From a virus, in the IMG/VR virus record IMGVR_UViG_3300009505_000082, positions 1 to 21,266 of that record: 21,266 bases of DNA; one strand, written 5' to 3'. Below the pieces are notes generated by a model. That model had not been told where the DNA came from. It was given only the letters and a program-made list of their open reading frames with translations, and did no database searches. How positions within the stretch are numbered: the first letter of the stretch is position 1; each line of letters starts with the position of its first letter. The position numbers and the translations under genes are program-made. Positions 6,098 to 19,554 of this stretch are shown here, in pieces.

Positions 6098-6874
6098 ATG
6101 AAGATACGTGAGCTAGTAAATGAATCACCTTTGCTTAAGAATACGGGCAGTTATAATCCTAACGAAGCTAGCGCAGTTAAAAAAGTACAAACTGCGCTAC
6201 AGCGCAAGGGATATGATGTAGGCCCAACGGGCGTTGATGGCAAGTACGGTCCTCGAACCGAAGCAGCAGTGCGCAAATTCCAAACAGACAATAACTTACA
6301 AGTTGATGGCATAGTAGGGCCTGACACACGCAACGCACTCGGTGTTGCTTCTGTAAAAACACTTGATCCTGATAGTCAAGTGGGATTTTTCGGTGATCCG
6401 TCGGTAGGCTTAGATCTAGTAAGTAAGTCTAATGATGTGTCAGGCGACGCAATAGACATAGCAGCGACTTTGATAAAAGAGTTTGAAGGTTATTATTCTA
6501 AAGCATACTGGGATTATAAGCAGTATTCAATCGGGTACGGTTCAAAGGCAAAAAGCAAAAATGAAGTGATCGATAAGCCGGAAGCTATGCGCAGGCTTAA
6601 ACAAGAAATGAAACAAGCTCAACAAAACGTGCTAGGTATTATGAAAAAAGGCAACTACAATTGGAGCAGTAAACAAGTAGCAGCACTAATTAGTTTTGCC
6701 TATAACATTGGTAGCATAAACCAACTTACAGCTAACGGCACAAGGGACGACGCAACTATATTAGCTAAGATACCTCAATATCGCAAAGCCGGCGGTAAAG
6801 TGTTAAGCGGTCTAGTAAAACGCAGAACCAAAGAAGCAGAAGTTTTTAAACAAGGTATGACAAATGAGAATTAA
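6098..6874 (+). CDS. Peptidoglycan-binding / GH24 lysozyme with capsid-targeting-like leader
   Basis: A muramidase that would cleave the MurNAc-GlcNAc bond of peptidoglycan. Residues 1-9 are MKIRELVNE, the shared leader. Residues ~24-82 are a PG_binding_1 module (VQTALQRKGYDVGPTGVDGK, then YGPRTEAAVRKFQ and VDGIVGPDTRNAL). Residues ~118-252 are a GH24 (T4 lysozyme/P22 endolysin type) domain. E130 in EFEG and D139 keep the 9-residue spacing of T4 lysozyme E11 and D20, followed by SIGYGS, ALISFAYNIGS and GLVKRRTKEAEVF. There is no signal peptide or SAR segment. It overlaps the next gene by 11 nt and is followed by another wall-lytic enzyme. It may be a lysis endolysin, but the leader raises the possibility that it is carried in the virion and acts at entry. 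Confidence 0.88.
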   Translation: MKIRELVNESPLLKNTGSYNPNEASAVKKVQTALQRKGYDVGPTGVDGKYGPRTEAAVRKFQTDNNLQVDGIVGPDTRNALGVASVKTLDPDSQVGFFGDPSVGLDLVSKSNDVSGDAIDIAATLIKEFEGYYSKAYWDYKQYSIGYGSKAKSKNEVIDKPEAMRRLKQEMKQAQQNVLGIMKKGNYNWSSKQVAALISFAYNIGSINQLTANGTRDDATILAKIPQYRKAGGKVLSGLVKRRTKEAEVFKQGMTNEN

Positions 6875-7739
6875 AGATATCGTAAGCGAAGACAACCGCG
6901 ACGAAGCTAAGAAAATAATACAGCAGATAAACGATTTGAATAACATACCAGGACTAAGTGGCATACAGTTTGACGATGAGGGCGAATTCGTTGATGACGC
7001 TACGTATAAGTCAAGAAACATAGAGCCAGCTGAACCTAAAGAATTAACTCCGCTACAAAAGCAAAGACAAGTTGGACAAAGCCGCAGTAACATAGGGCAG
7101 TGGGCACTTCGCACTACTGACCATGACGCATTTACAATCATTGCTAAAGCTAACTTCTTAATGACCAACTTCCATACCAAAGGTAACGACTTTGACCCAC
7201 GCTTCGCAAACTATGAAGGCTTTATCAGTCTAGGTCGAGGCAAGAACAACGTATATCAACGAAGCATGAAGGACGGTGGAGTAACTATGGTTCTTGACGT
7301 AAACAAAATGAGACAGATACGTGGAGCAAAGTACAGCCAAGCATTTGTTTACGGTACGTACGACAAAAAAACCAAAAAATTAGAACCAGCGAAAACAGCT
7401 TCGCAAACTCCTAGCGGTATGTCGTTTATAGACGAAGCAGAGCATAGAATGTATTTTAAGAGTCAATTTGTTGATGACTGGCACAAATACATAAAAGAAA
7501 TACATTTCAATATGCCAACGGAAAACGGCAAGCCAGCAAGTCATTTGATCAAAGCAGAAGAGATAGCAAGAGACTACGCTGACAAGTTCAACATAAAATA
7601 TTTTGTATACAAAGATCGATCTGCTTACAATATGCTAGCCAAAGGTTATGCTATGAGTAGCAAGGCAATTAAAAAAGCAGGTGGTCTAGCTAAACTGTTT
7701 GCGTTTGTATTTTCCCGAGGTAAGGTAAAGCTAAAATGA
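6864..7739 (+). CDS. Possible ADP-ribosyltransferase-like protein with capsid-targeting-like leader
   Basis: A 291-residue protein. The leader is MRIKDIVSE, followed by an acidic linker to ~80. The core (80-215) has a series I associate with ART/PolyVal-type folds: LRTTDHDAFTIIAKANF, then FISLGRG (120-126), VTMVLDVNKM (140-149), EAEHRMYF (191-198) and KYIKEIHF (208-215). In such folds the Arg in the first strand, the Ser/Gly-Arg strand and the Glu of EAExR shape the NAD site. T4 packages and injects its own ART, Alt, through a capsid-targeting sequence, which makes this combination meaningful. The Lys-rich C-terminus (SRGKVKLK) is basic. The fold call is by eye and unsearched. The alternative is a conserved phage protein of another fold. 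It overlaps neighbours on both sides (11 nt and 4 nt). Confidence 0.75.
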   Translation: MRIKDIVSEDNRDEAKKIIQQINDLNNIPGLSGIQFDDEGEFVDDATYKSRNIEPAEPKELTPLQKQRQVGQSRSNIGQWALRTTDHDAFTIIAKANFLMTNFHTKGNDFDPRFANYEGFISLGRGKNNVYQRSMKDGGVTMVLDVNKMRQIRGAKYSQAFVYGTYDKKTKKLEPAKTASQTPSGMSFIDEAEHRMYFKSQFVDDWHKYIKEIHFNMPTENGKPASHLIKAEEIARDYADKFNIKYFVYKDRSAYNMLAKGYAMSSKAIKKAGGLAKLFAFVFSRGKVKLK

Positions 7740-8398
7740 AAATAAATGAACTAATAAACGAAGACTGGTGGAACCCGTTCAAGAAGAAAGACACTTACCC
7801 GCAAGACGCAAGAGACGCAATGGATGCTGTAGTAGCATCGTCTACAGCAAAAGCAGCACAAAGCTCAGGACGTGGCGACGGTAACACCGAAGTAGCAAGA
7901 CGCAACGCACCTCCGATGCCCAAGCAACGACCAGACGTTGTACAAGCAGCTATTGCTAGAGCTGCCAAGGACTTAGGTATATCACCAAAGGCGCTGCGTG
8001 CTATTGTTAAGACAGAATCCAATTTCAAATCAACAGCAGTATCACCTAGTGGAAATCACTACGGTGCTACGCAGATACACAAGAGTCATTTCCCAATGGC
8101 GGGCATGACTGCTGATGAATTCAAAGCAGCATCACTAGACCAGCAGATAGCAGTTTATCCCGAGTGGGCAAAAAGCTATCGTATGCTAGAAAAGTTTCCT
8201 AACATAGAAACATATAAGCCAGCAGTACAAGCAGCTATCATGCAAGCGTTTCAGTTTGCTCCAAACGGTTCTAAATGGCAAAAAGCATTTCACAGTCAAA
8301 ACTATGACCTGCCAGTAACTAAGAGTCAGCAAGCAGGCAAACTAGGCACGACAAGCATACGTGATATGTACACTTATTTTGTAGGATTGGGGTTGTAG
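7736..8398 (+). CDS. Lytic transglycosylase (SLT-type) with capsid-targeting-like leader
   Basis: A 220-residue protein. The leader MKINELINED contains two I-x-E triplets. Residues 11-65 are a charged, low-complexity linker. Residues ~66-200 look like a soluble lytic transglycosylase domain: AIARAAKDLGISPKALRAIV, E94 in VKTESNF as the probable catalytic Glu, and YGATQIHKSHF in place of the usual GLMQI. These enzymes cleave peptidoglycan to 1,6-anhydro ends. Virion-borne versions (e.g. the transglycosylase part of T7 gp16) open the wall for DNA entry. There is no signal peptide. Its start overlaps the previous stop (ATGA) and it closes a cluster of four leader-bearing genes. The function is well supported by motifs; the virion location is inferred. 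Confidence 0.82.
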   Translation: MKINELINEDWWNPFKKKDTYPQDARDAMDAVVASSTAKAAQSSGRGDGNTEVARRNAPPMPKQRPDVVQAAIARAAKDLGISPKALRAIVKTESNFKSTAVSPSGNHYGATQIHKSHFPMAGMTADEFKAASLDQQIAVYPEWAKSYRMLEKFPNIETYKPAVQAAIMQAFQFAPNGSKWQKAFHSQNYDLPVTKSQQAGKLGTTSIRDMYTYFVGLGL

Positions 8399-9702: not shown

Positions 9703-10449
9703 CTAGTTAGCCTTACAATGCTTTGCGTATAGACTACAAGTATGATCGTTTATCATGTCTAGTTTGTTACCCACTAGGCCATTCCAGCGGTCCATAAGCT
9801 TTTTCCAAAAGCCTACGTTTACAACAACACCGTCACTATTAATATACTTCTCAGTACCTGCGTGCTTGAAGCCTAACAGTGCCGGCGGAACCATAGTAAC
9901 AACATCATTATTGTTAACCCAACGATAGTGTGTCTTGCCTGCCATGCTGTTAGCAAACTTAGCGTCGCCTGCTCTAGGAGAACCAAAAGTGTGTAGCTCA
10001 ACTGGGTCAGGCAATGCGTCATCTTCCCAAGCACGACTTGCCATAATAGTAATCATAGCAGCGCCGAGGCTGTGACCTGTAAACCACAAGTTGCGCTTGT
10101 CGTCATTTAGCGCTACTAGGTCCTCGTATATCATTTCCCAGATGTCATCAGACTCACGCTTGAATCCTTTGTGTACTTTACCAACAGTTTCGCTGTCTTC
10201 TTTTCGTGCGTCGAGATCAGCAAGCATATCGTTCCAGTTGCCAGGCTCAGTACCTCGACAAACAAACACTACATCAGTGTCACTTTCAAAGCGATACGCC
10301 TGGGCACCGTCTCTGCTGTAAAACTCAAGTGTGTGAAAACCAAATTCTTTAACAAGTTTTTTAGCTTCAGCTGGATCTTCGTAAACAAACTCAGATAGCT
10401 TGGCCAGAATGTGTCCCCGTCCGGAGACACGAAGTGATTTCATATTCAT
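9703..10449 (-). CDS. Class 3 lipase (alpha/beta hydrolase)
   Basis: A 248-residue protein with the features of the lipase_3 family, which hydrolyses acylglycerols or phospholipids: VVFVCRGTEPGNW (60-72) as the oxyanion region, the nucleophile elbow GHSLGA with Ser127, FGSPRAGD (155-162), the probable Asp182 in WVNNNDVVTMVPP and His236 near the C-terminus (NDHTCS). There is no signal peptide or lipobox, so it would act in the cytoplasm, be released at lysis, or be carried in the particle. It opens MNMKSLRVSGRG, without the I-x-E leader. The first ATG follows AGAGAGG about 10 nt away. A single-gene unit bounded by an exact late promoter (10476-10483) and a terminator. Confidence 0.88.
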   Translation of the reverse strand: MNMKSLRVSGRGHILAKLSEFVYEDPAEAKKLVKEFGFHTLEFYSRDGAQAYRFESDTDVVFVCRGTEPGNWNDMLADLDARKEDSETVGKVHKGFKRESDDIWEMIYEDLVALNDDKRNLWFTGHSLGAAMITIMASRAWEDDALPDPVELHTFGSPRAGDAKFANSMAGKTHYRWVNNNDVVTMVPPALLGFKHAGTEKYINSDGVVVNVGFWKKLMDRWNGLVGNKLDMINDHTCSLYAKHCKAN

Positions 10450-10506: not shown

Positions 10507-10770
10507 ATGCGCAAGAAAACTAGATCAATTTTAGAAGAACTACAGAACTATAGAAATTATGACCCTGACTTCATGATTGAAGGATCTGCTACTAACATTT
10601 TAGAAAGTGTTGTCAACTTAATGACTAGAGTTGACAAGCAGTACGGTCCTGACACAAGCATGAAGATTGAGAAAAAGTTTATTAACGCTTTGCGTACTGG
10701 CGATACTGACAAGTTTAGTAGAAGCTTAAAACGAATTATTAAGGAAACTAAAAATGACGATCCTAAATGA
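10507..10770 (+). CDS. Small protein of unknown function, 87 aa
   Basis: I take MRKKTRSILEELQNYRNYDP at 10507 as the start. The longer reading from 10453 would run through both divergent promoters. The protein is basic and helical, with I-x-E at residues 8-10 and a second hydrophobic helix (SATNILESVVNLMTRVDKQY) followed by KIEKKFINALRTGDTDKFSR. No clear ribosome site is present. The 3' end overlaps the nucleotidyltransferase gene by 17 nt, so the two are coupled and AAGGA inside its last codons serves the next start. It may be a partner or regulator of the downstream enzymes; that is position-based only. Confidence 0.68.
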   Translation: MRKKTRSILEELQNYRNYDPDFMIEGSATNILESVVNLMTRVDKQYGPDTSMKIEKKFINALRTGDTDKFSRSLKRIIKETKNDDPK

Positions 10771-11863
10771 AGGCGGCAATATTTTTAAAGATGCTGAAGG
10801 TACTATCCTTACACAGCGCATTGACCGAGCAGACGTAGTACCAACACTACGTTGGTTAGAAAAAATTACAAATCTTCCACACGAAGACTTTATGCTAGGA
10901 AGTACAGGTCGTAAAGAAACAAGCGGAGACCTTGACGTAGCAGTTAACCAACAAGATGTAAGCAAAGACGAGCTAGTACAAAAGCTAGCAGCGTGGTGTA
11001 CCCAGAACGGCAAAGATCCAAAAGCTTGGATACGCAAGACAGGTATTAGCGTACACTTCCTAACGCCCATCCGTGGTGATGAAAACAAAGGCTTTGTACA
11101 AACTGATCTAATGTTTGGCGATCCGGAATGGATGAAGTGGAGTATGGCAGGTTCAAACGATGCTACTGCGTTTGCTGGCGCTGACCGTCAAATCTTAATG
11201 AGCAGCATTGCTACTGCACAAGGCTTTAAATGGAGCCCAGCGCAAGGTCTTATTGATCGTATGAATAATCAAGTGATTACTCGCAACCCGCAGGAAATCG
11301 CACAGCACTTGCTAGGACCAAACGGTCAGCCAGATGACTTAGAAAGTGTAGAAACTATTTTAACAAAGCTGCGTACTCGTGTTGACTATCAAGAGTTAAC
11401 AGCAGATGCTAGAGCTACATTTGAAAAAAGGGGAAAAACATTGCCAGAAGGTAAAGATATTAGTCGCTTGCGTGAGCTAGCTGGCGTACAAAAAATAGAC
11501 GAAAATCCATTGAAGTTTGCTAAGAAAGCTGCCGACGCAGCAAGCAAAATGTTTAAAGGTGCGGACCCGGAGCCGAAACCGTTTGACCCAGTTGATTTTA
11601 TCGAAAAGCTTCCTAAGTCAGGTAGCGCTCGTGAAAGGCTCGAAGGTCTAATCCAAAATGTAAACAGCGTTGAGGACTTGGCTAAAGTAGAGAAAAAGTT
11701 CCTTGACATCCTTGCGCAAAAGAAAGTTCGATCTACTGAGGAAGCACAGTATTTGATAGACGTACTTCGAGTTAAGAAGCAAGAATTAATAAATCATAAT
11801 AATAAGTTTGTAAGACCAGATGCTCCAGACGCTCCGTTTGGATCACCAGGGAACCCAATCTAA
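10754..11863 (+). CDS. Polymerase-beta-like nucleotidyltransferase
   Basis: A 369-residue protein. Residues 45-65 carry the nucleotidyltransferase signature: GSTGRKETSGDLDVAV, with Gly49-Ser50 and Asp59/Asp61 as the metal-binding pair. A third acidic residue, Asp118 in VQTDLMF, follows on a later strand. Enzymes of this superfamily transfer NMP to RNA, protein or small molecules; the acceptor here is unknown. The C-terminal ~120 residues are helical and charged (SARERLEGLIQNVNSVEDLA). The N-terminus MTILNEGG contains L-N-E at residues 4-6, a weak form of the shared leader. It overlaps the upstream gene by 17 nt and joins the ligase-fold gene by TAATG, suggesting a joint pathway. Confidence 0.8.
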   Translation: MTILNEGGNIFKDAEGTILTQRIDRADVVPTLRWLEKITNLPHEDFMLGSTGRKETSGDLDVAVNQQDVSKDELVQKLAAWCTQNGKDPKAWIRKTGISVHFLTPIRGDENKGFVQTDLMFGDPEWMKWSMAGSNDATAFAGADRQILMSSIATAQGFKWSPAQGLIDRMNNQVITRNPQEIAQHLLGPNGQPDDLESVETILTKLRTRVDYQELTADARATFEKRGKTLPEGKDISRLRELAGVQKIDENPLKFAKKAADAASKMFKGADPEPKPFDPVDFIEKLPKSGSARERLEGLIQNVNSVEDLAKVEKKFLDILAQKKVRSTEEAQYLIDVLRVKKQELINHNNKFVRPDAPDAPFGSPGNPI

Positions 11864-13059
11864 TGAAAATGATCGAACTGTTCGAAGGAACGACTCAGCT
11901 AAACGAAGGAGCCGAGGCTCGTATTCAACACGCAGAGGACTTGATCTTTTGGGAAGGTTCTAAAGGTGCGCTTCGTGCGCTCGAAGCACTAAAAAGTATG
12001 GAAGAAGGCAAGCACAAAGACGTTACAATTAAATGGGACGGGTCGCCTGCTATTATCTTTGGACGCAACGAAGACGGCGAGTTTGTACTTACTGACAAAA
12101 GCGGCTTTGGTGCTAAAGGATACGACGGTAAGCCGAAAACTGCGCAAGCAGTTAACGATATGTTCATGCGCCGTCCAGCGGCACAGAAAGATCCGCAACG
12201 CCAACAAGAGTTCGCAGGCAAAATGTCGCAGCTATTCACACTGTACGAGCGTAGCTTTCCTAAGCATGTAATCGGCTTTCTCAAAGGCGATCTACTTTAC
12301 TTTGATACACCTCCGCAACAGGACGGTAGCTTTGTGTTTACACCTAACATTGTAACTTACACAGTTGATGCTAACAGCGAAATAGGTAGTCAGATTGCTT
12401 CTAGTAAAAGTGGTGTAGTTGTACACAGATTTATGACCCCAGACGGTCAAGACTCTGCTGTGCCTCAAAGCATTTTAAATCAAATGAGTGCAGGCGAAGT
12501 GATGTACTTCCCACCAGTAACTGTTGAGCGTGCGCCAAACGTAAATGATTCACATGTCAAAGACGCTATATCTCTTGTAACACAGAGCGGCGCAGCAATT
12601 GACGACATGTTAAATGTTCAACGACTAACTGAACTAAAGATGAAAGATCTGCCTATGATCTTTTACACTTATCTAAACAAGAAAGTTGACTTAGGCCTTG
12701 ACAACTTAGGTAGTGATTTTGTAAAGTGGATGCAGACAAGCAAGGTGTCACCGGCTAAGCAGCAAAGAATACAAGAGTACATTACTGAGCACAGCCAAGC
12801 GTTCAGAAACATGTGGCAATCAGTTGAAGAAATTATGCGAGTCAAGAACGATATTATTAAACAGTTCGACTCACACGACAGTGCTATTAAGTCAAGCATT
12901 AACGGTAACAACGGTGGCGAGGGATATGTAATGGATCATAACCAAGGCGCTATTAAACTTGTAGACCGTAGCGGCTTTACAGCAGCCAACAGATCTGTAC
13001 AGCGTGAGTCTGTATCACCTGAGCTAGACAGCATAAAGAAGCTAAGCGGCCTGGCATGA
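11863..13059 (+). CDS. ATP-dependent ligase-fold (covalent nucleotidyltransferase) protein
   Basis: A 398-residue protein. Key motifs of the DNA/RNA ligase superfamily are visible in order: motif I KWDG at 57-60 in TIKWDGSPAIIFGR (Lys57 would take AMP), a GDLLYFD stretch at 142-148 as a candidate motif III, EGYVM at 353-357 as motif IV, and IKLVDR at 364-369 as motif V, with only one of the usual two Lys. The long insertion between III and IV is unlike classic T4 Rnl1 or Rnl2. The leader MKMIELFEG has L-F-E at 6-8. Substrate (RNA, DNA or other) is unknown. It is coupled to the nucleotidyltransferase upstream (TAATG) and to the next gene (ATGA). Confidence 0.78.
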   Translation: MKMIELFEGTTQLNEGAEARIQHAEDLIFWEGSKGALRALEALKSMEEGKHKDVTIKWDGSPAIIFGRNEDGEFVLTDKSGFGAKGYDGKPKTAQAVNDMFMRRPAAQKDPQRQQEFAGKMSQLFTLYERSFPKHVIGFLKGDLLYFDTPPQQDGSFVFTPNIVTYTVDANSEIGSQIASSKSGVVVHRFMTPDGQDSAVPQSILNQMSAGEVMYFPPVTVERAPNVNDSHVKDAISLVTQSGAAIDDMLNVQRLTELKMKDLPMIFYTYLNKKVDLGLDNLGSDFVKWMQTSKVSPAKQQRIQEYITEHSQAFRNMWQSVEEIMRVKNDIIKQFDSHDSAIKSSINGNNGGEGYVMDHNQGAIKLVDRSGFTAANRSVQRESVSPELDSIKKLSGLA

Positions 13060-13937
13060 TGGATTTTATAAAAGAGATACACGAAGCAAGGATGATACGA
13101 TCATCTGGTGATCAAAAGGATCTTACCTATACTGATTGCTGCGAACGTCTCTTTATTATGACTTGTATGATCGAAGTAATGCGGTACGACGTAGACAACA
13201 CAAACTTTATGAAAAGCTATCTGTACAAGACACTTGACAATAATCAGTACAAGCGTTTTAAGTTTGACAAGACAGACTTTTATAACTTTATCTACTTTGT
13301 CAACGGCGACAGCGCAGCAATGGACAAACTAAAAGATCCAGGCGCTGCTAAGAAGCTAAGAAGAGATACACACCTACCTCTCGCACAATTAAATGCGTAC
13401 TTAACTAAAGTGTATCATAACCCTACTTCCTATAGAAGTACAGACAACGTGTTTTACGAGATACAAAAGAGCCTAGGACAATATGTGTCACAATACTCTG
13501 AGATGCGTAGAATGCTAAGCAACTATACTACAATCGGTACTGAGCAGAGAAAGCAGATTATTACAAAGCTGCTGTTTGCTGCTAGAGCAAAGCTACGTTC
13601 TAGTGATTTGATCGAAGAATTTTCTACTTGGGCAGGACGTAATAACCTAGAAGTAAGCACAGTTACTGATAATGAACCAACCCATTCGAGAGCAGATTTT
13701 GATTCTAGTAATACCAAGGACGCATCATACTACAGACTATTAGTAGGTAATCAAAAAATGATGATGGCGTTTAGGTTTGTAGAGCGTGCGTTCAAAGGCG
13801 GCACTGTGCCTATTAGCTATATAGAAGCATACTTGCCTGTTATTGAAATGATACATGATTTTGTTAAAGCAGGACCGCAGGCAATACAACAGCTAAAAGT
13901 GCTACACGCTCGTATAAAAAAGTCCAATAAAAAGTAA
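13056..13937 (+). CDS. Conserved protein of unknown function, third gene of the ligase module
   Basis: A 293-residue helical protein starting MMDFIKEIHEARMIRSSGDQ; the second Met (13059) is an equally possible start. I-H-E at 8-10 fits the (I/L)xE leader pattern. It contains a Cys pair (TDCCERLFIMTCMIEVMRYD), an aromatic stretch (KRFKFDKTDFYNFIYFVNGD) and a basic C-terminus (HARIKKSNKK). I recognise no catalytic motif. The start overlaps the ligase-fold gene by 4 nt, so it is probably co-translated, and it may be a partner subunit. No terminator follows clearly. Confidence 0.72.
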   Translation: MMDFIKEIHEARMIRSSGDQKDLTYTDCCERLFIMTCMIEVMRYDVDNTNFMKSYLYKTLDNNQYKRFKFDKTDFYNFIYFVNGDSAAMDKLKDPGAAKKLRRDTHLPLAQLNAYLTKVYHNPTSYRSTDNVFYEIQKSLGQYVSQYSEMRRMLSNYTTIGTEQRKQIITKLLFAARAKLRSSDLIEEFSTWAGRNNLEVSTVTDNEPTHSRADFDSSNTKDASYYRLLVGNQKMMMAFRFVERAFKGGTVPISYIEAYLPVIEMIHDFVKAGPQAIQQLKVLHARIKKSNKK

Positions 13938-15103: not shown

Positions 15104-15358
15104 ATGAACGAAGCAACACAGATTTGGGGCAGAAAAGGGCAAGCACTAGTACGCAAGTATAGATGCTCAGGCGGCAAGCGTCATGGACGTATTGTTTCTT
15201 CACCAACTGCTTGTCATGCTGCTCCTAACGCAAAGCGCAGCGCACAAATGAAAATTACTCGTGCTCGACTTGGCAAGGTAATGGCTCGACGAGCAAAGCG
15301 TACAAAACGTGTAAACCCTGCTAGCAAAAGATTATCACAAGGTATGAACAAAAGATGA
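15104..15358 (+). CDS. Very basic small protein, 84 aa
   Basis: Begins MNEATQIWGRKGQALVRKYR. I count 14 Arg and 10 Lys in 84 residues (29%) and almost no acidic residues. Two Cys (YRC and TAC) about 16 apart lie in the middle, and KRTKRVNPASKRLSQ is near the end. The pattern fits a DNA- or RNA-binding protein, and similar basic proteins are found in T4-like marine phages. T4 internal head proteins are also basic. The ribosome site is GGATAAGG overlapping the previous stop. Its own stop overlaps the next start (ATGA). Function unknown. Confidence 0.7.
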   Translation: MNEATQIWGRKGQALVRKYRCSGGKRHGRIVSSPTACHAAPNAKRSAQMKITRARLGKVMARRAKRTKRVNPASKRLSQGMNKR

Positions 15359-15660
15359 AAATTCTCGACCTACTAAGCGAAAACGAAAACCCAATGACAA
15401 CAGCGCAAAACCAGCTGGCATTGGCTCGTAAAGAGCTTCAGGATCACCAAGCTAAAATTAGAGATATGCAAGGCCAGCAGATGCAGGCAAAGAGAGCAGC
15501 AGTAACAGCAGCTCAGCAATCATTAACAGCAGCACAGAAGCAACAGAATAATCCGCAGCAACAGCAGCAAAACACACAACAGCCGCAACCACAACAGTCG
15601 CAGCAAAACACACAACAGCAGCCTAACAATCAAACAATGGGCAGCACACAGCCACAATGA
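15355..15660 (+). CDS. Gln-rich low-complexity protein with capsid-targeting-like leader, 101 aa
   Basis: Starts MKILDLLSENENP, so L-S-E falls at residues 7-9. Residues ~15-58 are a helix (LARKELQDHQAKIRDMQGQQ) that may form a coiled coil. Residues ~60-101 are almost only Gln, Asn, Pro and Ser, including an in-frame 12-residue duplication at DNA level (15564-15583 and 15600-15619). The reading frame is kept open across the repeat and is joined at both ends by ATGA overlaps, so it is a real gene. A flexible linker, scaffold or phase-separating role is conceivable; nothing specific can be assigned. Confidence 0.68.
   Translation: MKILDLLSENENPMTTAQNQLALARKELQDHQAKIRDMQGQQMQAKRAAVTAAQQSLTAAQKQQNNPQQQQQNTQQPQPQQSQQNTQQQPNNQTMGSTQPQ
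15564..15619 (+). repeat. 20-bp direct repeat in the Gln-rich gene
   Basis: The sequence GCAGCAAAACACACAACAGC occurs at 15564-15583 and again at 15600-15619, an offset of 36 nt (12 codons). This keeps the frame and repeats QQNTQQ. Confidence 0.85.
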
Positions 15661-15887
15661 AAATCAACGAACTAATATACGGATTTGAAATACAAAAGAC
15701 AAACGAAGAGCAGGCGTTGATACGCAAGCTAGGAGTCGAAGTTCCGTATAATAGCTTAACTGAACGAGAACAAGTCATTTTCACTAACCTTGAACGCAAG
15801 GACCTAGTAAATAGAGTTAACAAGGACGGGACAACTTTAGTTAAGCGGAATGAACACAGCCATACACCATATAAACGAACTTTTTGA
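15657..15887 (+). CDS. Small protein with capsid-targeting-like leader, 76 aa
   Basis: Starts MKINELIYGFEIQKTNEEQA, with I-N-E at residues 3-5. The remainder (LGVEVPYNSLTEREQVIFTN, then LERKDLVNRVNKDGTTLVKR) looks like a small winged-helix or similar helical fold with a basic end. The ATG overlaps the previous stop (ATGA), and its last 38 nt overlap the next gene. A DNA-binding fold is only a guess. Confidence 0.65.
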   Translation: MKINELIYGFEIQKTNEEQALIRKLGVEVPYNSLTEREQVIFTNLERKDLVNRVNKDGTTLVKRNEHSHTPYKRTF

Positions 15888-16290: not shown

Positions 16291-17220
16291 ATGAACATTA
16301 AAGATATGAATAAAAAGCCTAGCTCAGCAGAACTTAACCAGAATCTTGTTGAGCGTTTTAATCTTAACGTTACTCTTGAAAACTACTCGTTTAACGATTT
16401 AGTCAACATGAGAACAATACTTGTTTCTAAGATAAACAGAATGGTCGAGAGCAATAACTTTGATTATACTCATAAAGACGAATATCAAAAGAACAGACTG
16501 TTTGCTGAAATACTTGAGGCTGAAATCGAAGCACGTCGTCCGCTAGTTGAAGGCGAAGAAATGAAAGCTCGGCTTGTAGTTGGCATAAGTCAGGTAATTG
16601 ACGATGTTAAGAATTGGATGCAGAAAGCAAACGATCTAAAAGCTGACGAAGTACTAGAGTACACAGAAATTGTTCGTGACGAAATGGGCGCGGACACTAG
16701 TCAGCAGTTTGGCGAAATAGTCAACACTGCTCTAGAAAATCTTTACACAGCAATGGAAGCAGCACACGGCGAAATGCTAAGAGCTCAAGACGTAATTATG
16801 GGTAAAGACCCTGGCACAGCTATTGAAGAGCCAATGGGCGCAGAAGAGCCAATGGACGAGCCTGCTGTAGGCGACGCAGATATAGAACTTGATGACGACT
16901 TTGGTGCTACTGCTCCAGCAGTAGGCGGAGATGCTCCAGCAGACCGCACACGCCGTGAAAGCATTGAGCGTAGTCGCAGACTTGGTGCTATCATGAGCGA
17001 AGGTAACTTGTCTGACTATGTAGCCAACAAGAAAACTGCCCAGCAAAGAAAAGCAGTACGAGGCGGCAAAGGTAGAGCTAAGGCAGCAGGTAAAGCTGAT
17101 CCAAGAGCTACTGATACCACTCTTGGCGGAGTGTTAAATCAAGAGCGTCGTACTCAGAAGCACCAACAAAAGAAAAGAGTTACTAACCCTGCTAACCATA
17201 ACGCAAAAGACGGTATGTAA
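16291..17220 (+). CDS. Prohead-core-like / internal structural protein, 309 aa
   Basis: Begins MNIKDMNKKPSSAELNQNLV. Residues ~1-170 are helical (RTILVSKINRMVESNNFDYT; KARLVVGISQVIDDVKNWMQ; YTEIVRDEMGADTSQQFGEI). Residues ~178-215 are an acidic Pro/Ala linker (GAEEPMDEPAVGDADIELDD). Residues ~217-309 are Arg/Lys-rich and disordered-looking, with IMSEGNLSDY, which includes I-M-S-E. The SQVIDDVKNWMQ...VRDEMG pattern resembles a conserved protein of marine T4-like phages that I believe is virion- or core-related, but I am not certain. Acidic linker plus basic tail suits a scaffold or DNA-contacting head protein. It joins the next gene by TAATG. Confidence 0.7.
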   Translation: MNIKDMNKKPSSAELNQNLVERFNLNVTLENYSFNDLVNMRTILVSKINRMVESNNFDYTHKDEYQKNRLFAEILEAEIEARRPLVEGEEMKARLVVGISQVIDDVKNWMQKANDLKADEVLEYTEIVRDEMGADTSQQFGEIVNTALENLYTAMEAAHGEMLRAQDVIMGKDPGTAIEEPMGAEEPMDEPAVGDADIELDDDFGATAPAVGGDAPADRTRRESIERSRRLGAIMSEGNLSDYVANKKTAQQRKAVRGGKGRAKAAGKADPRATDTTLGGVLNQERRTQKHQQKKRVTNPANHNAKDGM

Positions 17221-17609
17221 TGCGTATAGCAGAATTACTGCGTGAAAACACAGATCTACTTTTTCAGATCTTGAAGACAGTGGAAGGCAGCGCTAATCAA
17301 AAAGATATGCCAGTTGCCCTCCACTTCGATGGAATCACTAAGCCAGTACAAGGCGCAGTTAACTTAGACATCAATCGTATCATGACAAACGCTGGATCCC
17401 CGCAATTCAGCTTTGACACTTTTAACAATGCGTACGAGCAAGATGATCGCATCAAAGACCTTGTAAAAGAATTTGACAAAGATAAAATTATTCTCAAGAC
17501 TGAAGAACAACTTGCTGACCCAGCAGATCAAAGCAAGCCAGGCGATGCTGAAAACACCGTAAAAGACATGGCAAAAAAAGGTTTAAATACTTTCTTAAAA
17601 GATCGTTGA
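17220..17609 (+). CDS. Small protein with capsid-targeting-like leader, 129 aa
   Basis: Begins MRIAELLRENTDLLFQILKT; I-A-E at 3-5 and L-R-E at 7-9 both match. The central part has a strand-rich patch (MPVALHFDGITKPVQGAVNL) and an acidic helical C-terminus (KEFDKDKIILKTEEQLADPA). The start is TAATG-coupled to the core-like gene, and this is the last leader-bearing gene in the window. Function unknown. Just past its stop the first sigma70-type promoter begins; the -35 overlaps its final codons. Confidence 0.68.
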   Translation: MRIAELLRENTDLLFQILKTVEGSANQKDMPVALHFDGITKPVQGAVNLDINRIMTNAGSPQFSFDTFNNAYEQDDRIKDLVKEFDKDKIILKTEEQLADPADQSKPGDAENTVKDMAKKGLNTFLKDR

Positions 17610-17641: not shown

Positions 17642-17968
17642 ATGAATGAAAACAGAACCAACGAACAAATCATCACTGAGATTAAAGAGCTTATTCAAGA
17701 ACGAGTAAAACCAGCTGTGGCAGGCCACGGCGGCAATATTGAATTTTTAGAATTCAACGACGGCCGTTTACTACTTGAGCTTGGCGGAGCATGTAGCGGA
17801 TGCGCAGGCAGCACTATGACTCTTAAGATGGGTATCGAAAATATGCTAATGCATTACGTACCTGAGATTAAAGAAGTAGACGCTGTAGACGATCCTTTTA
17901 GCAATGTAGATCCTTTTTATACTGAGGATTTTTTTAGCACTGAAAATTTAGATGACCCTAATTCTTAA
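17642..17968 (+). CDS. Nfu/NifU C-terminal domain iron-sulfur protein
   Basis: A 108-residue protein. Residues ~10-82 are a NifU C-terminal domain: IKELIQERVKPAVAGHGGNI, LLLELGGACSGCAGSTMTLK with Cys51 and Cys54 (CxxC), then GIENMLMHYVPEIKEV. Such proteins hold a [4Fe-4S] cluster as a dimer and pass it to apo-enzymes. A single domain without the A-type N-terminus of NfuA is the phage and plastid size. The acidic, Phe-rich tail (DPFSNVDPFYTEDFFSTE) is unusual. The stop overlaps the exonuclease gene by 17 nt. Possible clients are Fe-S nucleases or host enzymes; that is inference. It is a host-derived auxiliary metabolic gene candidate. Confidence 0.88.
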   Translation: MNENRTNEQIITEIKELIQERVKPAVAGHGGNIEFLEFNDGRLLLELGGACSGCAGSTMTLKMGIENMLMHYVPEIKEVDAVDDPFSNVDPFYTEDFFSTENLDDPNS

Positions 17969-18702: not shown

Positions 18703-19554
18703 ATGGGTAAGCTTGAACGAGATTGGGCTGAAGAAGTCGAAAAGAACACTGCTGCTGGCATTCGCGGCGAAGCAGTTAATGCTGCTGATCAAAAGATTGC
18801 AGATGCGGTACGAGCGCATGTAGAAGCAGAGTTTAAGCAGAGTATAAAAACTGCCAAGTGGGTAGGCGCAACATCTTACGGCGACGCAGGAGATGTACAT
18901 GTATTTCTCAGTGACGATACTAAAATTCCTGTAGAGCTTAAAACATCTAAAGCTGACAGCTCTGGCACTAAGGCAAACCCCGGCAATAACTTTATTAAGA
19001 AATACGTCAAAGATGCTGTTAATTATAGCGACTTTGATGATAACTTAGGTCTACGTAAACAACGTTATGATCTTGTGGAAAGCGTAGTAGGGCATACACT
19101 AGAGAAAAAAGCGCACTACGAAAAGGCCTTGCGTGGTCTCCGTGATGCCGGCCACTCTGAATTAGTTAAGCAAATTAAGGCTATTACTCGTCCGGGACAA
19201 ATTCAGTATGCTTCTTATGTTACTGAATTGTTATCAAATCATTTACGTGAAACGCAGCAAATGGTAGACGACATCCTAGCCGGAAACAATACAACAAAGG
19301 TTACACAAACTGAAAATCTAGTCTACTGCGTTGTCAAGCAGTATCAGACTAAAGCTCAAACTGTTGAGTTTTACGACTTCTCGCAGATGGATAGTACCGT
19401 TGCTAGGGTTGTATGCGACGATCGAAGTAGTTTTAAAATCCAAAATGCTGCAGGTTATGATATCATAACCCTTAGTGTACTTTGGAAAAATATTTGTCAA
19501 GGAGGCGCTGGCCCGGCTCATAACATTTTTATTGGCAACGCATTTAAGCCTTGA
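18703..19554 (+). CDS. Candidate PD-(D/E)XK endonuclease beside a DNA methyltransferase
   Basis: A 283-residue protein beginning MGKLERDWAEEVEKNTAAGI. Residues 57-82 carry SYGDAGDVHVFLSDDTKIPV followed by ELKTS: an Asp (61 or 64), then Glu78-x-Lys80, the D...(E/D)XK arrangement of a restriction-type active site. Helical segments follow (EKKAHYEKALRGLRDAGHSE; TELLSNHLRETQQMVDDILA), then a beta-rich C-terminus. I do not recognise the exact family. Placed 42 nt before a beta-class methyltransferase and with its own sigma70 promoter, it looks like the nuclease of a type II-like restriction-modification pair. Alternatives are a phage nuclease or an unrelated PD-(D/E)XK protein. It has no leader motif. 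Confidence 0.75.
   Translation: MGKLERDWAEEVEKNTAAGIRGEAVNAADQKIADAVRAHVEAEFKQSIKTAKWVGATSYGDAGDVHVFLSDDTKIPVELKTSKADSSGTKANPGNNFIKKYVKDAVNYSDFDDNLGLRKQRYDLVESVVGHTLEKKAHYEKALRGLRDAGHSELVKQIKAITRPGQIQYASYVTELLSNHLRETQQMVDDILAGNNTTKVTQTENLVYCVVKQYQTKAQTVEFYDFSQMDSTVARVVCDDRSSFKIQNAAGYDIITLSVLWKNICQGGAGPAHNIFIGNAFKP

Follow-up and report, generated by a model that had tools for sequence, protein, structure and literature searches.

The window analyzed here, a 21,266-base virus fragment from IMG/VR (record IMGVR_UViG_3300009505_000082), contains a module of four consecutive genes, orfA, NT, LIG and HEL, which we propose encodes a virion-carried fill-and-seal repair kit whose substrate is more likely DNA than RNA. 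We place the probability of this reading at roughly 0.48. It draws on the coupling and natural fusion of the genes, the conservation of catalytic residues, the relationship of NT to family X DNA polymerases (PolX), the ligase motifs of LIG, protease-like sites near the N-termini, and the mass spectrometry (MS) annotation of an NT homolog; from these we infer the enzymatic activity, substrate and timing of action of the module proteins. A role in repair at the start of infection is suggested because an enzyme resembling a gap-filling polymerase has a ligase-like enzyme as its consistent partner, and both appear to be delivered by the head.

Successive genes of the module overlap by 17 nucleotides, by TAATG and by ATGA (Table 1). 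A preliminary description of the fragment had listed these overlaps, the catalytic motifs and an (I/L)xE triplet near each N-terminus, and every one of these details matches the sequence. It had also interpreted NT and LIG as a tightly coupled nucleotidyltransferase (NTase) and covalent-ligase fold, an assignment supported by conserved catalytic residues, fold and profile comparisons and gene neighborhoods that include natural fusions. Loss of Lys57 or of the DxD, or scattering of homologs without their partners, was examined specifically: K57 is retained in 71/71 LIG sequences, D59 in 51/52 and D61 in 52/52 NT sequences, and a ligase adjoins NT in 54/54 non-redundant loci.

Table 1. Module genes and predicted catalytic and processing sites in the window (arrows mark predicted cuts)
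Feature	Position	Strand	Description
orfA	10507..10770	+	87 aa, small basic protein of module
NT	10754..11863	+	369 aa, family-X-polymerase-like nucleotidyltransferase
NT, predicted prohead-protease site LNE6↓GG	10769..10771	+	(hydrophobic)xE before GGNxFK in 49/50 relatives
NT, catalytic motif GSTGRKETSGDLD, residues 49-61 (D59, D61)	10898..10936	+	D59 51/52, D61 52/52
NT, third catalytic Asp D118 in QTD	11105..11107	+	51/52
LIG	11863..13059	+	398 aa, DUF6267 covalent-ligase-fold protein
LIG, predicted prohead-protease site LNE15↓GAEAR	11905..11907	+	directly ahead of folded domain
LIG, motif I KWDG (K57, predicted adenylylated Lys)	12031..12042	+	K57, D59, G60 71/71
LIG, motifs IV and V, EGYV (E353) to IK (K365)	12919..12957	+	E353, K365 71/71
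HEL	13056..13937	+	293 aa, protein without assigned function
HEL, predicted prohead-protease site IHE10↓AR	within 13056..13937	+	motif in most HEL relatives

When IMG/VR was searched with profiles of NT and LIG, 281 NT relatives and at least 543 LIG relatives were recovered; the related contigs are fragments, and all counts refer to sequences rather than independent events. The order orfA-NT-LIG-HEL is maintained in loci retrieved with NT. The ligase adjoining NT is LIG in 53 of the 54 non-redundant loci and a jumbo-phage-type ligase (JL) in the remaining one, Sinorhizobium phage Phosso, where JL occupies the LIG slot. Including loci found by LIG scans biases co-occurrence, although all loci retrieved with NT carry LIG too. 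Of the non-redundant NT loci with enough flanking sequence, 47/51 contain orfA and 29/36 contain HEL, and of 15 further contigs found via JL, 14 have orfA nearby and 14 have NT. NT and LIG form a single open reading frame in 17 loci, such as L153 (NT, residues 1-235; LIG, 263-616). The gene at L096 (4363-7797) encodes a 1144-aa protein comprising an NMNAT-like domain, a HAD phosphatase-like domain with a weak match to DNA 3'-phosphatase, NT (547-780) and LIG (779-1143). In jumbo phages Atu_ph07, Phosso and PA5oct, a common cluster adjoins primase and helicase genes, and DUF6267, the Pfam family of LIG, matches 410 of the phage records searched, many cyanophages among them. The module is old and tightly coupled, and its linked polymerase-like and ligase-like enzymes are found in many marine and giant phages.

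Several other arrangements were observed around these genes. The 990-aa protein at L116:3918-6890 is a fusion of LIG to what appear to be two different Pol-beta-fold NTases. In Melnitz, S-CAM9 and related phages, DUF6267 is preceded by a gene (L020:6938-8023, L021:4057-4983, L337:12460-13479) that looks nuclease-like by eye, with a PD-(D/E)xK pattern, and PA5oct gp255 resembles the S-CAM9 gene. Directly after the Atu_ph07 module (L024:6558-9935) lie four consecutive paralogs, one of them as a C-terminal part, sharing PLYRG...RxDRKP.

NT carries a palm motif of the form GS...DxD...D, in which G49, D59, D61 and D118 are near-invariant among 52 NT sequences. It has no convincing match in Pfam, PHROG or NCBIfam, and sequence-profile searches of the PDB with NT, LIG and HEL returned nothing significant. 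The AlphaFold2 (AF2) model of NT has a confident core, and the top 50 Foldseek matches in the PDB were all family X polymerases (Pol lambda, mu and beta), aligned over about 200 columns, with Pol lambda (3pmn) the best (E 7.8e-5, probability 1.00). HHalign against an archaeal PolX profile gave a probability of 80.5 (E 1.3e-5, score 46). Among the controls, RlaP, CCA-adding and ligase profiles gave probabilities below 1 (RlaP, 0.2), a reversed PolX profile gave 0.1, and column-shuffled NT profiles scored at most 21.5 versus 46. Because the aligned part corresponds to palm and thumb (NT residues about 20-245) and nothing in it corresponds to the 8-kDa and fingers regions, we class NT, from its profile and model, as family-X-like and reduced to palm plus thumb rather than as a canonical member. 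The remaining C-terminal extension of about 120 residues (246-369; 11489-11863) is confined to the closest relatives of the window, L001 and L002. Identification of NT as a generic NTP_transf_2, RlaP (PF10127) or CCA-adding enzyme was rejected for want of Pfam matches and on null HHalign scores, and a steric-gate argument for its choice between dNTP and rNTP was dropped as too alignment-dependent. The fold and motifs of the polymerase-beta-like NTase proposed earlier hold, whereas the notion of a generic end-modifying enzyme gives way to a specifically PolX-like one; of the two roles then suggested, repair by gap filling and sealing is consequently the likelier, and tagging the less likely.

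LIG matches PF19782 (DUF6267) with an E-value of 2e-39 and 136.5 bits, against a curated cut-off of 27. Ligase motifs I (KxDG), IV (EG) and V (K) are invariant in 71 diverse LIG sequences, the latter two appearing in the window as the strings EGYVM (E353) and IKLV (K365). The AF2 model is confident (mean predicted local distance difference test score, pLDDT, 90.4; predicted template modeling score 0.86) apart from residues 1-18, which are disordered (pLDDT <50). Covalent ligases lead its Foldseek matches in the PDB, with fungal tRNA ligase Trl1 at the top and human Lig3 and AsfvLIG among them. Beyond its own family, the best enzyme-annotated match in BFVD is a 324-aa Atu_ph07 RNA ligase (E 1.8e-3), presumably the ligase of the Atu_ph07 module, which has the same length; other RNA ligases are also among the BFVD matches. 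HHalign of LIG against a deeper JL profile gave an E-value of 2.5e-10, and both have an HxED helix before KxDG; judged from these profiles, LIG and JL are clearly homologous. This ruled out an unrelated ligase replacing LIG in jumbo phages, as weak BLAST results had first been read. LIG contains a helical insert; an OB domain is not apparent after motif V, and the AF2 model ends in helices soon afterwards. Together, sequence and model indicate that LIG is a divergent covalent ligase-fold family. Recharging of LIG with NAD+ by an NMNAT-like partner is only an idea.

The nature of the LIG family also frames the choice between DNA and RNA. An RNA repair role, in which virion-delivered NT would replace nucleotides lost on cleavage of tRNA or another RNA, LIG would do the resealing, and attack by a host anticodon nuclease would be undone, has on its side that LIG and JL lean towards RNA ligases and that the pairing logic of RlaP with Rnl in phages has been published (PMC7824862). 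The leaning is seen in the BFVD and Trl1 matches, in a weak HHalign match of JL to Rnl2-type RNA ligases (E 2.6e-4; LIG directly against Rnl2 was null) and in weak PF09414 matches, while DNA-ligase profiles were null or weak against LIG and JL (null for LIG directly). PF09414 also detects DNA ligases, however, and so is not RNA-specific; NT is not RlaP, with no PF10127 match and an HHalign probability of 0.2, and instead resembles a DNA polymerase with a duplex-binding thumb. What speaks for DNA is this PolX identity, the replication neighborhood (primase and helicase), the precedent of viral PolX-ligase pairs and the HAD domain found in L096, and we regard RNA repair as unlikely.

Turning to delivery, the T4 prohead protease gp21 cleaves after L/I-x-E, and the 10-19-residue targeting propeptides of T4 internal proteins end at such sites (PMC9026906). 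T4 sequences display this rule in IpII and IpIII (IAE10↓A), IpI (ITE19↓A), gp24 (LRE10↓S) and gp23 (LTE65↓A). The corresponding N-terminal triplets of the module are ILE/LEE in orfA, LNE in NT, LFE and LNE in LIG and IHE in HEL. In orfA, (I/L)xE at residues 8-11 is conserved; ahead of the NT fold the motif occurs in 49/50 sequences, with a looser first position, and ahead of standalone LIG in 49/70, compared with 4.2 in shuffles. Just before LIG in fused or extended proteins, [IL]xE[AGS] is found in 18/19 (1.3 in shuffles), and L096 has L-x-E sites at two joints, before NT as well as before LIG. Since the motif persists inside fusions, it is not a start-codon artifact but resembles a polyprotein cut site, and chance as its origin was ruled out on the same grounds. 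Across the window genes, [IL]xE occupies 3.1% of positions at residues 2-16 versus 0.6% further in; the N-terminal enrichment is modest in two 111-kb contigs (0.22-0.23 of genes versus 0.15-0.16 of interior windows).

Annotations of related virions give hints in the same direction. In PA5oct, the annotation 'structural protein, ESI-MS/MS' (electrospray ionization tandem MS) is attached to gp253, an NT homolog (hidden Markov model E 3.3e-25); the orfA homolog gp259 is recorded as a virion structural protein, with no mention of MS, and orfA of the window matches phrog_11854, 'virion structural protein' (E 1.5e-9). NMNAT-like or cytidylyltransferase proteins, of the type partnered with DUF6267 in cyanophages, have been reported in virions of S-CBWM1, S-SZBM1, S-SCSM1 and S-CREM2. 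A gp21-family protease was found neither in the window nor on most fragments, as expected for partial contigs; it is present in relatives G015 and G023, and a 111-kb relative has the module together with gp21 and a gp23 that contains LxE sites. Virion packaging of the module appears well supported, whereas packaging of LIG and HEL in this virus and cleavage at the predicted sites are putative. The earlier suggestion of delivery with the DNA is strengthened by the sites and by the PA5oct NT homolog, but no MS match in the records seen extends it to LIG.

Other genes of the window begin in a similar way. The lysozyme with a peptidoglycan-binding domain (6098-6874), an unnamed protein (6864-7739) and an SLT transglycosylase (7736-8398) start with MKIRELVNE↓S, MRIKDIVSE↓D and MKINELINE↓D, respectively, and look like prohead-targeted cargo as well. 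Small genes at 15355-15660, 15657-15887 and 17220-17609 have the initial segments MKILDLLSE, MKINELIYG and MRIAELLRE; the second matches phrog_16215, 'virion structural protein'.

In the mechanism we propose, short N-terminal targeting segments would draw the module proteins into the prohead during head assembly, and a gp21-type prohead protease would remove these segments after L/I-x-E; in fusion-bearing phages, the same protease would release NT and LIG from the fusion as separate proteins. At infection, the module proteins would enter the cell along with the DNA. NT, as a minimal family-X-like polymerase, could add missing nucleotides at gaps or broken ends, and LIG, as a covalent ligase charged via Lys57 by ATP or NAD+, could seal the join. 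orfA and HEL, the latter without a PDB, Pfam or PHROG match, may be accessory components of the virion that perhaps act in packaging or in binding ends. The likelier substrate would be incoming phage DNA, with its gaps, nicks, breaks and cuts made by the host, rather than RNA.

Several observations count against this proposal. NT does not reach the cut-offs of PF14791 and PF14792 (best E 0.024 for the thumb, 3/52, and 0.18 for the palm, 1/52), and its alignment begins only at the palm, at about PolX residue 187, leaving out the 8-kDa and fingers regions. The PDB fold matches of LIG are individually not significant (E >=0.046), and the ligase leans towards RNA ligases. LIG occurs without NT in 16/74 loci with flank, six of which have as partner a HIGH-motif 'cytidylyltransferase', as in cyanophages. 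Finally, the PA5oct LIG homolog gp256 has no MS note in its annotation, and a DUF6267 member could not be identified among the listed virion proteins of S-CREM2.

The proximity of the module to primase and helicase genes would also suit an intracellular replication set that is not injected, with LIG as the replicative ligase, particularly in cyanophages without a recognized DNA ligase. T4 has such a ligase; S-CAM9, MED4-213, S-SZBM1 and the related Melnitz lack both PF01068 and PF01653, and DUF6267 is the sole ligase-like protein seen here in these four phages. The absence has been remarked on before: within a subgroup of jumbo phages that also takes in cyanophages, most lack a DNA ligase (PMC7824862). 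Because Phosso, Atu_ph07, PA5oct, DLP6 and contig G014 carry a normal DNA ligase too, a replicative role for DUF6267 would not be universal, and both the conservation of L/I-x-E sites and the MS-annotated NT homolog point to virion entry, so that we consider this explanation improbable. Host takeover, with injected NT attaching nucleotides to host proteins or RNA (compare T4 Alt, which ADP-ribosylates RNA polymerase) and LIG as a second modifier, would share the delivery route of Alt and the internal proteins and is chemically conceivable in that Pol-beta-fold NTases can modify proteins (PMC5512222), but obligate pairing or fusion with a ligase and the PolX palm-plus-thumb likeness fit polynucleotide substrates and make it very improbable.

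The fill-and-seal repair kit has parallels in known systems. Viral PolX-ligase pairs are already known from two eukaryotic viruses, Phaeocystis globosa virus (PgV), in which PgVPolX is a polymerase-ligase fusion like those of the 17 phage loci, and African swine fever virus (ASFV), with PolX and AsfvLIG. ASFV PolX is a reported exception in lacking the 8-kDa and fingers domains (PMC5537341), as does NT. In contrast to these systems, phage NT is PolX only at the profile level, LIG is a new divergent family, unlike the recognizable NAD+ DNA ligase of PgV, and LxE sites are added. Phage RlaP and Rnl pairs likewise join a Pol-beta-fold NTase to a covalent ligase (PMC7824862), but NT has no RlaP (PF10127) match, DUF6267 appears to be neither Rnl1 nor Rnl2, and packaging is implied here. 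The predicted sites are like those of T4 IPI-III and Alt, in which a short N-terminal segment ending at L/I-x-E is cut off by the prohead protease before injection (PMC9026906); the module cargo differs in being a polymerase-ligase-like pair, with the site inside a fusion in some lineages. End processing, gap filling and sealing are also coupled in non-homologous end joining, by LigD in bacteria and by PNKP, Pol lambda/mu and Lig4 in eukaryotes. The module pairs predicted polymerase-like and ligase-like activities in a comparable way, to which L096 adds a HAD phosphatase-like domain, although the polymerase and ligase domains of LigD differ from NT and LIG. Ku was not seen among the module data, in which no search was aimed at it.

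We found no earlier account of DUF6267 or of a phage PolX-ligase pair in the open-access literature, to which the search was confined. Tentatively, we suggest that many T4-like and jumbo phages may pack and inject a self-made PolX and DUF6267 ligase as an end-joining or gap-repair kit; that some lineages may make this kit as a polyprotein, which in its largest form has NMNAT-like, HAD phosphatase-like, polymerase and ligase domains and is cleaved by the prohead protease; and that DUF6267 may in addition supply the ligase that T4-like cyanophages are missing. The analysis offers a testable function for DUF6267, an unannotated family, and for a Pol-beta-fold partner unnamed in family libraries. 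If the suggestion holds, polymerase-ligase repair pairs would be carried not only by some giant viruses of eukaryotes but also by phages, which would deliver them in the virion like T4 Alt or IPI; DUF6267 would be a candidate for the ligase noted as absent from T4-like cyanophages (PMC7824862); and the prohead protease would be shown to process polyprotein cargo. Minimal injected polymerase-ligase pairs could, in addition, serve as DNA- or RNA-joining tools.

Elsewhere in the window, an unnamed protein encoded at 18703-19554 contains GDVHVFLSDDTKIPVELK and is possibly a PD-(D/E)xK nuclease, without a Pfam match. Immediately upstream of the module, the minus strand encodes a class 3 lipase (9703-10449; PF01764, E 2.3e-23). 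The gene at 17642-17968 encodes a NifU-like Fe-S scaffold domain in a phage, and this domain recurs near the module in relatives.

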